A program made the position numbers and the translations under genes. Positions 9,771 to 11,885 of a DNA stretch of 33,564 nucleotides are shown here, in pieces. The DNA is taken from contig JACDAM010000011.1 of NCBI GenBank assembly GCA_013695435.1, forward strand, positions 1-33,564. The letters are read 5' to 3'. Each line of letters opens with the position of its first letter. Positions within the stretch are counted from its first letter, which is position 1. This DNA is from Burkholderiales bacterium (GTDB lineage Bacteria; Pseudomonadota; Gammaproteobacteria; Burkholderiales; JACMKV01). The notes beneath the pieces are model-generated. The model made no database searches, was not told the origin of the DNA, and saw only the letters and a list, made by a program, of their open reading frames with translations.

Positions 9771-10343
9771 ATGAGCGTCAAATCCGATAAATGGATACGC
9801 CGCATGGTTCAGGAATGCGGCATGATCGAACCGTTCGAGCCGGATCAGATCAAGGAAGTCGGCGGTCGGCGGGTGGTTTCTTACGGCACATCGAGCTACG
9901 GTTACGATATTCGCTGCTCGGAAGAATTCAAGTTGTTCACCAATTTGAACAGCACGATCGTCGACCCAAAAAAATTCGATCCGCAATCGTTCGTCGATGT
10001 GCATGGCGAATTCTGCATTATCCCGCCGAATTCTTTCGCGCTGGCCCGCACCGTCGAGTATTTCCGGATTCCGCGCAATGTGCTGACCATCTGCCTCGGC
10101 AAATCGACCTACGCGCGTTGCGGCATCATCGTCAACGTGACGCCGCTCGAACCGGAATGGGAGGGATACGTCACGCTGGAATTTTCCAACACGACGCCGC
10201 TGCCCGCCAAGATTTACGCAAACGAGGGCGTCGCCCAGGTGATCTTCATCGAATGCCAGCCCGATGATGTTTGCGAGACGTCTTATCGCGACCGCGGCGG
10301 CAAGTATCAGGGGCAGAAAGGCGTGACGTTGCCAAAAATCTAG
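9771..10343 (+). CDS. dcd: dCTP deaminase
   Basis: The enzyme deaminates dCTP to dUTP, the main source of dUMP for thymidylate synthesis in many proteobacteria. It is a 190-residue trimer-forming member of the dUTPase fold family. ATG 9771 follows AAGGG. The catalytic segment [18 protein letters not shown] holds Ser112 and Arg116, and VTLEFSN holds the catalytic Glu137. [14 protein letters not shown] (37-50) is the conserved N-terminal signature. Length and motifs are standard for the monofunctional deaminase. No Dut-type bifunctional features are seen. Confidence 0.96.
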
Positions 10344-10549
10344 GCCTCGTTTCCGTCCCGCCGTCGTTCCGGTGCGGGTAAACTCCGTGCCTCGAAAAAC
10401 AGCCTTTCCTTGGATCGCCTGAACAACTCCTTTTGTTTTTTCGCTCGCCCGTCACGATTGGTTCCGATGCGCCGCGAACTCATTCGCGCACGTCTGTCTA
10501 ATCGCGTTTCAGCTTTTCTTTCAATCGTTTTTCCAGCGGCAAATATCGC
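10344..10549. other. Intergenic, nothing recognised
   Basis: No coding potential, repeat or clear terminator was seen between dcd and the decarboxylase promoter. The stretch has scattered T-rich runs (around 10430-10440 and 10510-10530) without a convincing stem. Confidence 0.5.
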
Positions 10550-10577
10550 TTGATTCCGGGGGCGTGCAGCCTATAAT
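10550..10577 (+). promoter_or_regulatory. Strong sigma-70 promoter of the ornithine decarboxylase leader
   Basis: TTGATT (10550-10555), a 16-bp spacer and a perfect TATAAT (10572-10577) predict a transcript start near 10584, exactly where the leader hairpin begins. It is the best promoter match in the window. Confidence 0.75.
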
Positions 10578-10583
10578 TCGCTC

Positions 10584-10607
10584 CTCGGACGTCCTCCGGC
10601 GTCCGAG
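10584..10607 (+). promoter_or_regulatory. Leader hairpin with anti-Shine-Dalgarno loop
   Basis: CTCGGACG (10584-10591) pairs perfectly with CGTCCGAG (10600-10607) around an 8-nt loop, TCCTCCGG. The loop contains CCTCC, complementary to GGAGG in both downstream ribosome sites: AGGAGG at 10613-10618 for the leader peptide and at 10702-10707 for the decarboxylase. The two sites lie in the identical octamer CAGGAGGC. The hairpin stands at the predicted 5' end, so it may also protect the transcript. Control of translation is inference. Confidence 0.55.
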
Positions 10608-10622
10608 CCAACAGGAGGCATC

Positions 10623-10691
10623 ATGGCCAGTAGAAAGATCTATGAGATGTTCAGCACCGATTTGGTTAACGTCCACATTCCCGTTACGTAG
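10623..10691 (+). CDS. 22-codon upstream ORF (putative leader peptide)
   Basis: ATG 10623 lies 4 nt after a full AGGAGG site, and the frame ends at TAG 10689-10691, 21 nt before the decarboxylase start. The peptide begins MASRKIYEMF and ends NVHIPVT, with its only proline three codons from the stop. Three features suggest it is translated: a consensus ribosome site, a position inside the transcript predicted from the strong promoter, and the same CAGGAGGC octamer as the structural gene. Ornithine-sensing leader peptides are known ahead of speF in enterobacteria, but this peptide is not related to those in any way I can see. A regulatory role is inference; a small functional protein is the alternative. 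Confidence 0.6.
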   Translation: MASRKIYEMFSTDLVNVHIPVT

Positions 10692-10712
10692 TGCCTTTTT
10701 CAGGAGGCTGAG

Positions 10713-11885
10713 ATGCAGATGCGCAATGCTGTTTACAAAGAAATCGAAACCGAAGAGCTGTTCGACACCCACCCCGAAATCAGCCTGGACTTCAGTCACG
10801 TCCGGCGCGCCGTCGAAGCAGGCTATAGCAGACCGTTCCTGCTGGTCGACACCGAAATCGTCCGTAGCAAGACCCGCCGCTTCAAGGATGCGATGCCGCG
10901 CGTTCACCCGCATTACGCGGTCAAGGCGAATCCGCACCCGCAAGTCCTGCGCGCGCTGATCGAAGAAGGCGCCGGTTTTGAAATCGCGTCGATCGCCGAA
11001 CTCGATCTGCTGCTCGGTCTCGGCGTTCCGGCCGCTGAAATCTATTACAGCAATCCGATGAAGTCGCGCGAATACGTCGAGTACGCCGCGCGTCACGGCG
11101 TCGAATGGTACGTGCTGGACAGTGTCGAAGAATTGCGCAAGATTCACAGCGTCAAGCCCGACGCCAAACTTTATCTGCGCATTGATACGCCGAACATCGG
11201 CAGCGATTGGCCGCTGTCGGGCAAATTCGGCGCGCATCCCGAAGAAGTCACCGACATTATCGCGACGGCCGCCGCCCTCGGCGCCGATCTGGCGGGCGTG
11301 ACGTTCCACGTCGGGTCGCAATGCCGTAATCCGGACAACTGGCGCGTCGGTATCGAAAGCGCCAAACGAGTGTTTGCGCAAATGCGCCTCGCCGGCCTCA
11401 AGCCGCGCCTGTTGAACATCGGCGGTGGCTACCCGGTGCGCCACGTCAAGCCGATTCCGTCGATCGAGGCGATTGCCGATGTCGTGAACGAGGCGATCCG
11501 CGATCTACCGCCGGAAATGCGCGTCATGGCCGAGCCGGGCCGTTATCTGGTATCGGATGCCGCTTATTTCGTATGCCGCGTCGTCGGCACCGCGACGCGC
11601 GCCGGCAAGCGCTGGATGTACTGGGATGCCGGTGTGTTCGGCGGCATCATCGAAACCCAGGAAGGCCTGATTTATGAAATCCGCACCGACCGCAACGGCC
11701 GCGAGATTCCGTGGGTGGTGGCAGGGCCGACTTGTGATTCGATGGACGTGCTGATGCGCGATCAGATGCTGCCGGAAGATGTGCAGGAAAACGATTTCAT
11801 CTATATCCCGAACGCAGGCGCCTACACAAGTTCGTACGCGAGCAACTTCAATGGCTTCCCGTTACCGGAAGTCCGCGTGTTTTGA
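10713..11885 (+). CDS. Ornithine (or lysine/ornithine) decarboxylase, alanine-racemase fold
   Basis: The protein is a PLP enzyme of fold type III that makes putrescine from ornithine; some relatives also make cadaverine from lysine. It has 390 residues. ATG 10713 lies 5 nt after AGGAGG. The N-terminal barrel begins with PFLLVDTEIV, and Lys71 in HYAVKANPHP is the PLP lysine. FHVGSQC (198-204) and NIGGGYP (235-241) bind the cofactor phosphate. Glu274 in AEPGRYLV contacts the pyridine nitrogen. Cys341-Asp342 in GPTCDSMD are the catalytic pair from the partner subunit, as in eukaryote-type ODC, and they rule out diaminopimelate decarboxylase as the likeliest call. It is preceded by a leader ORF and hairpin and followed by a strong terminator, so it appears to be a single-gene unit. 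Confidence 0.88.
   Translation: MQMRNAVYKEIETEELFDTHPEISLDFSHVRRAVEAGYSRPFLLVDTEIVRSKTRRFKDAMPRVHPHYAVKANPHPQVLRALIEEGAGFEIASIAELDLLLGLGVPAAEIYYSNPMKSREYVEYAARHGVEWYVLDSVEELRKIHSVKPDAKLYLRIDTPNIGSDWPLSGKFGAHPEEVTDIIATAAALGADLAGVTFHVGSQCRNPDNWRVGIESAKRVFAQMRLAGLKPRLLNIGGGYPVRHVKPIPSIEAIADVVNEAIRDLPPEMRVMAEPGRYLVSDAAYFVCRVVGTATRAGKRWMYWDAGVFGGIIETQEGLIYEIRTDRNGREIPWVVAGPTCDSMDVLMRDQMLPEDVQENDFIYIPNAGAYTSSYASNFNGFPLPEVRVF

Follow-up and report, generated by a model that had tools for sequence, protein, structure and literature searches.

A short open reading frame with a conserved C-terminus and UAG stop precedes an alanine-racemase-fold decarboxylase gene in betaproteobacteria and may encode a termination-arrest peptide

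Introduction

Why should an open reading frame (ORF) of only 22 codons, equipped with a full ribosome site of its own, stand between a promoter and the gene of a basic amino acid decarboxylase? The question is raised by a contig of a Burkholderiales bacterium (GCA_013695435.1, contig JACDAM010000011.1), analysed from position 1 to 33,564 on the forward strand; this whole stretch of 33,564 nucleotides is called the window below. Few natural small-molecule-sensing arrest peptides are known. A preliminary description of the locus had pointed to a leader ORF with a proline close to its stop, reminiscent of arrest peptides, and to a hairpin at the 5′ end of the transcript that might mask ribosome sites. 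Here the locus is compared with its relatives and with the leader systems already described.

Layout of the locus

The gene order in the window is dcd, promoter, 5′ hairpin, 22-codon leader ORF with a full Shine–Dalgarno sequence, and decarboxylase gene with a Shine–Dalgarno sequence of its own. The dcd gene (dCTP deaminase; 9771–10343) lies directly upstream of the leader, and a dcd-like C-terminal sequence also precedes the leader in several relatives. The sigma-70-type promoter, TTGATT-16-TATAAT (10550–10577, + strand), has its −35 element TTGATT at 10550–10555 and its TATAAT at 10572–10577, separated by a 16-nt spacer. It matches the consensus at 10 of 12 positions (0.2 expected in shuffles), and its position predicts a transcript start at about 10584. 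The same TTGATT–16 nt–TATAAT arrangement also precedes the leaders of relatives, for example at loci L003 and L005. The remaining elements follow on the + strand: the hairpin (10584–10607), the leader Shine–Dalgarno AGGAGG (10613–10618), the leader ORF (10623–10691; 22 codons plus TAG, MASRKIYEMFSTDLVNVHIPVT) and a second AGGAGG (10702–10707), which begins 11 nt past the leader stop and belongs to the decarboxylase, whose ATG start codon is at 10713. The octamer CAGGAGGC stands before both starts, and the sole proline of the leader is its third-last codon (P-V-T-stop). The promoter, the ORF, both AGGAGG sites, the shared octamer and the single proline are all located where the preliminary description had placed them.

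The decarboxylase (10713–11885, + strand; 390 residues) contains the Pfam domains PF02784 (Orn_Arg_deC_N) and PF00278 (Orn_DAP_Arg_deC), which make it a basic amino acid decarboxylase of the alanine-racemase fold. Its nearest solved structure is that of the lysine/ornithine decarboxylase 2PLJ (E 1e-70). An NCBIfam search of the protein gave nothing above the curated cut-off, and its substrate can therefore be named only as likely ornithine, possibly also lysine.

Conservation of the leader peptide and its stop codon

Upstream regions were gathered by decarboxylase homology alone, from 80 loci in named betaproteobacterial genomes (Nitrosomonas, Nitrosospira, Nitrosovibrio and many metagenome-assembled genomes). 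A leader was counted wherever an ORF of 15–26 codons with a ribosome site ended in Pro-x-Thr-stop. Such an ORF was present ahead of the same alanine-racemase-fold decarboxylase at 76 of the 80 loci; shuffled regions gave a mean of 0.1 in 80, with none of 20 trials exceeding 1, and the reverse strand gave 1, so that the leader occurs far beyond chance. Its C-terminus and stop are kept across some ten betaproteobacterial families, as in Nitrosomonas europaea (MRSKINLFIQTDWVQVHIPET), N. oligotropha (MRSTKNFFAPADLVNIHIPET) and Nitrosospira multiformis (MTGKANYFITADLVNIHTPVT). The leaders start with AUG and span 19–24 codons, with exactly 21 codons in 76 of 88 distinct leaders.

The leader evolves as a protein. 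Over 76 aligned 21-codon leaders, pN/pS was 0.32 in codons 12–21, 0.57 in codons 2–8 and 0.88 in codons 9–11, and the two shifted frames of the conserved part gave 1.32 and 1.67; with synonymous differences close to saturation, the true values lie below those given. The proline is encoded by CCT, CCC, CCG or CCA, and Ile, His and Asn use their common codons. The element thus has the properties of a regulatory leader peptide or upstream ORF (uORF): it is short and conserved, has a separate ribosome site, always precedes the one gene in cis and is under coding selection. The occurrence at 76 of 80 loci and the coding signature together lend strong support to the leader ORF of the preliminary description, whose frame, C-terminal residues and TAG are conserved far beyond close strains.

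The constraint is tied to the C-terminus: the five residues before the stop (positions −5 to −1: H/D, I/L, P, V/E, T) have the lowest entropy and give the signature [HD]-[IL]-P-[VE]-T, and a second low-entropy stretch is found at −10 and −9 (D, L). The zero entropy at P and T arises partly by selection, as the leaders were gathered by P-x-T; the count of 76 in 80 is free of this bias. In the window, the H-I-P-V-T codons and the UAG stop that form the proposed arrest signal occupy 10674–10691 (+ strand). Leaders of family f51 (L222 and L223) have 24 codons and a wholly different middle part, yet they end in QHIPVT and QHTPVT. The stop itself is TAG in 87 of 88 leaders, compared with 22 of 80 decarboxylase genes. 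ACG encodes the final Thr in 60 of 76 leaders, against a background share of 21% of the Thr codons in decarboxylase genes. Conserved residues adjoining a constrained stop codon characterize termination-arrest peptides, and this constraint on both the P-site codon and the stop fits an event during termination at a release factor 1 (RF1) stop.

Spacing, ribosome sites and RNA structure

The distance from the leader TAG to the decarboxylase start has a median of 22 nt (5–95%: 18–25), and the decarboxylase Shine–Dalgarno of the relatives begins a median of 9 nt past the TAG. Toeprints show a ribosome to cover about 10 nt past a stop codon that occupies its A site; a ribosome held at the leader UAG would therefore touch or abut the decarboxylase Shine–Dalgarno and exclude a 30S subunit from it. 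The Shine–Dalgarno duplex energy averages −10.7 kcal/mol for the leader and −7.4 kcal/mol for the decarboxylase in the relatives, the leader site being the stronger in 79 of 88. The stop-to-start distances in all three frames exclude, as a rule, read-through or frameshifting into the decarboxylase.

No conserved RNA structure was detected in the leader. RNAalifold returned zero consensus pairs for 68 aligned leaders, in an alignment that begins at the leader Shine–Dalgarno and has the 5′ hairpin outside its scope, and the folding energy of the leader region was no lower than that of shuffled or resampled sequence (mean MFE z +0.39). No terminator-like site was found in the leader region. A transcription-attenuation leader with a regulatory codon run was rejected, given that the consensus holds no codon run and the region neither a terminator-like site nor conserved structure. 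The palindrome GTCATCATGAC was likewise rejected as a binding site, being broken wherever codon 2 is AAA or AGA.

The 5′ hairpin of the window has arms at 10584–10591 and 10600–10607 that form 8 Watson–Crick pairs; in RNA, extra U-G and C-G pairs extend the stem to 10 bp, closed by a CUCC tetraloop. The 8-bp hairpin of the preliminary description is therefore present, but the CCTCC that it placed in the loop is not all free in the RNA. The window contains 15 perfect 8-bp stems with loops of 3–10 nt, which makes a single hairpin weak evidence. Only one other such hairpin was seen among the genomes read, in the sister genome L002 of the same genus; in other families there were by eye none, or other ones.

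A possible arrest mechanism and its alternatives

We propose, with a probability of about 0.5, that the leader ORF encodes a cis-acting arrest peptide, on which the ribosome would stall at the UAG and cover the decarboxylase ribosome site, probably as a feedback by polyamines or ornithine. The very strong leader Shine–Dalgarno would load ribosomes onto the leader; once [HD]-[IL]-P-[VE]-T lay beside the peptidyl transferase centre and the A site held UAG, RF1 would release the peptide slowly or not at all. The halted ribosome would reach the decarboxylase Shine–Dalgarno about 9 nt downstream, so that new 30S subunits would be shut out and less enzyme made. Upon normal termination at the leader stop, the decarboxylase site would be left free or be reached by coupled re-initiation. 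That no switchable structure was found in the leader region counts in favour of such an arrest by occlusion, and termination arrest at RF1 or RF2 stops has precedents in TnaC and SpeFL (PMC8429421).

Stalling, its dependence on a ligand, the identity of that ligand and the repressive direction are what we infer from this pattern. The gene context suggests ornithine or polyamine sensing; the trigger would most likely be an abundant end product (putrescine, spermidine or cadaverine) or the substrate. Feedback by an end product is favoured, since it is hard to see how a stall at the leader stop could fail to block the decarboxylase. Two observations stand against the arrest reading. Some genomes with a close decarboxylase have a shortened or altered peptide, or no leader at all. 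The spacer between the leader Shine–Dalgarno and the ATG, TCATC, is near invariant in the relatives (T in 70, C in 77, A in 86, T in 82 and C in 84 of 88; CATC at 10619–10622 in the window), and arrest at the stop does not explain the conservation of a non-coding spacer. So conserved a spacer is unusual; its sequence looks like an extension of the pairing with the 16S rRNA end, apart from one mismatched C.

The leader might instead serve plain translational coupling, its strong Shine–Dalgarno recruiting ribosomes and passing them on 22 nt downstream while the peptide senses nothing. The stronger leader site in 79 of 88 relatives and the fixed stop-to-start spacing, which a plain coupling leader could share, agree with this, as does the fact that in some lines only the block around the ribosome site is kept, while the ORF has 7 codons or is altered. 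Coupling, however, needs no conserved H-I-P-V/E-T end, no preference for UAG over UAA or UGA and no ACG as last codon; it accounts for the spacing but not for the peptide, and we regard it as unlikely.

An activating arrest peptide of the SpeFL kind, whose stalled ribosome would either block Rho or unmask a ribosome site that lies downstream and is concealed by RNA structure, is less probable again. It would act before the same kind of gene, SpeFL being an L-ornithine sensor that inhibits RF1 (PMC8429421), and expression of Salmonella speF requires the speF leader ORF (PMC6386406). There, however, the speF start is at nt 516 and the leader ORF at nt 32, whereas the roughly 22 nt between stop and start found here would put the stalled ribosome on the decarboxylase site. 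Activation of this kind would need such a distance or a structure, and the region shows neither a conserved site-hiding structure nor a terminator-like site.

Conservation at the coding level would also suit a small protein that works in trans and might, for instance, bind the decarboxylase; the peTrpL leader peptide of Sinorhizobium is a precedent for such a role (PMC7298713). A role in trans gives no reason for the identity of the stop, the last Thr codon, the fixed distance or the strict cis linkage, and appears improbable. Finally, it is most improbable that the hairpin is a switch hiding both ribosome sites, as the preliminary description had proposed on account of a CCTCC loop complementary to the GGAGG of both: although L002 carries a hairpin at the same place, its sequence and loop differ, none is seen outside the genus, the loop in RNA is the CUCC tetraloop, folding energies are no better than those of shuffles, and a 5′ hairpin protecting the mRNA end, which this one may be, would look alike.

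Comparison with known leaders

The leader had no match in NCBIfam, and with E values up to 10 allowed, neither the window peptide nor those of three relatives matched a Pfam family. The leader resembles SpeFL (ORF34; Pfam DUF2618, PF10940) of enterobacterial speF, also a short ORF before an ornithine decarboxylase, with nascent-chain control at the stop via RF1 as proposed here. The SpeF enzyme differs in fold from the present decarboxylase. SpeFL has 34 residues and an HIRRT core, lies about 480 nt before the speF start and involves Rho and long-range RNA folding (PMC6386406), whereas the leader described here has about 21 residues ending in IP[VE]T, stands 22 nt before its gene and has no structure that we could find. 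Membership in the SpeFL/PF10940 family was rejected, there being no Pfam match and no DUF2618 motif in the leaders listed. TnaC of tnaCAB, with 24 residues, a conserved proline near the stop and arrest during termination (PMC8429421), is similar in outline, but its proline is last, its stop is UGA, it has a Trp12 and it controls Rho, while the present leader has its proline in third-last place, stops at UAG and adjoins the gene start.

The preliminary description knew of no such leader before decarboxylases of this fold in betaproteobacteria. Two elements qualify that statement, as the speF RNA RF00518 (PMC1273637) and the odc1 motif (PMC8632094) of alphaproteobacteria both precede ornithine decarboxylases; neither of them is the element described here. 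RF00518 lies upstream of COG0019 decarboxylases, the same family as here, and it was not found to bind ornithine, lysine, putrescine, cadaverine or spermidine (PMC1273637). It differs in being a long structured RNA without a homologous leader ORF at the 15 loci inspected. The Rfam search gave no gathering-level match in the window, none below threshold at 10500–10800 and none in nine relatives, and the RF00518 matches that were found are all in genomes outside the class of the window. At these loci (L060–L074), a common stretch AAGCAACGACG..CGGGCTTTTTTGGTCTC can be translated as KQRR-x-G-F, but the codon in front of it is variable (TTG, CTG, TTA, TCA), so that the stretch is probably conserved at the RNA level. 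Lacking a homologous ORF and a constant start codon before KQRR-x-G-F, RF00518 was rejected as the same element.

The odc1 (uORF-25-1) motif is also a conserved uORF of fixed length before a gene annotated as ornithine decarboxylase, with 11 residues, a UUG start that adjoins the main start, likewise UUG, a hairpin and a pseudoknot (PMC8632094). The present leader, with 19–24 codons, an AUG start, separate ribosome sites, a main start about 22 nt past the stop and zero consensus pairs, does not belong to it. Among eukaryotes, the uORF of AdoMetDC (MAGDIS) stands before a polyamine gene, and its peptide is thought to repress the main ORF in a sequence-specific manner linked to termination. It differs in being a hexapeptide that involves the eukaryotic release factor, in preceding another gene and in having no sequence relation to the leader.

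No description of the leader was found in the searchable literature, with most subscription papers outside its reach. It is quite possible, and we put it forward tentatively, that the [HD][IL]P[VE]T-UAG leaders form an undescribed family of ligand-sensing termination-arrest peptides, which would block RF1 and sterically close the start next to them, and so give betaproteobacteria direct polyamine (or ornithine) feedback on ornithine decarboxylase, a bacterial counterpart in logic of the AdoMetDC uORF. If true, this would explain how polyamine synthesis is tuned in these bacteria, ammonia oxidisers included. The leader is short, carries a clear signature at its C-terminus together with a constrained stop, and occurs in cultured Nitrosomonas and Nitrosospira, so that stalling, ligand and release-factor dependence are directly testable.

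Distribution and probable loss of the leader

In 399 order-level genomes, every match of a leader model at E up to 1e-4 lies next to the decarboxylase, except for one at the end of a contig, and none of them stands ahead of another gene, as judged by comparing gene contexts by hand; four weaker matches were inspected and the leader was not present. Among 274 class-level genomes, the only match was the window's own genome. By hand count, 36 of 50 order-level genomes with a decarboxylase of at least 67% identity had the P-x-T-TAG leader, about 9 had an altered one and 5 had none; all 17 genomes with a decarboxylase of at most 62% identity were without it. In the altered genomes the Shine–Dalgarno/start block is kept and the peptide is shortened or changed, for example to MTRTRNY or to ORFs of 37–38 codons running into the gene start. 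Control by the leader thus appears to be dispensable in some lines. Presence of the leader is clustered on the enzyme tree (6 changes versus a shuffled mean of 14.5), with the deep forks open, and an early origin with repeated loss is likely.

In one genus of family f19 (L224, L225, L227 and L228), a conserved stretch, GTGTGACTTGAAAAAGC..TTGATAGGAG..GGTGAATCACTG, replaces the leader ORF before the decarboxylase; an Rfam search of L224 and L227 gave no match, and the stretch is possibly another regulatory RNA. In family f23 (L057, L058, L209–L212 and L214), the start block AAGGAGGTCATCATGACA is kept, followed by a 7-codon ORF or by a 37–38-codon ORF that overlaps the decarboxylase start, and GTCA(C/T)GAAAGAC is still conserved before the gene start.
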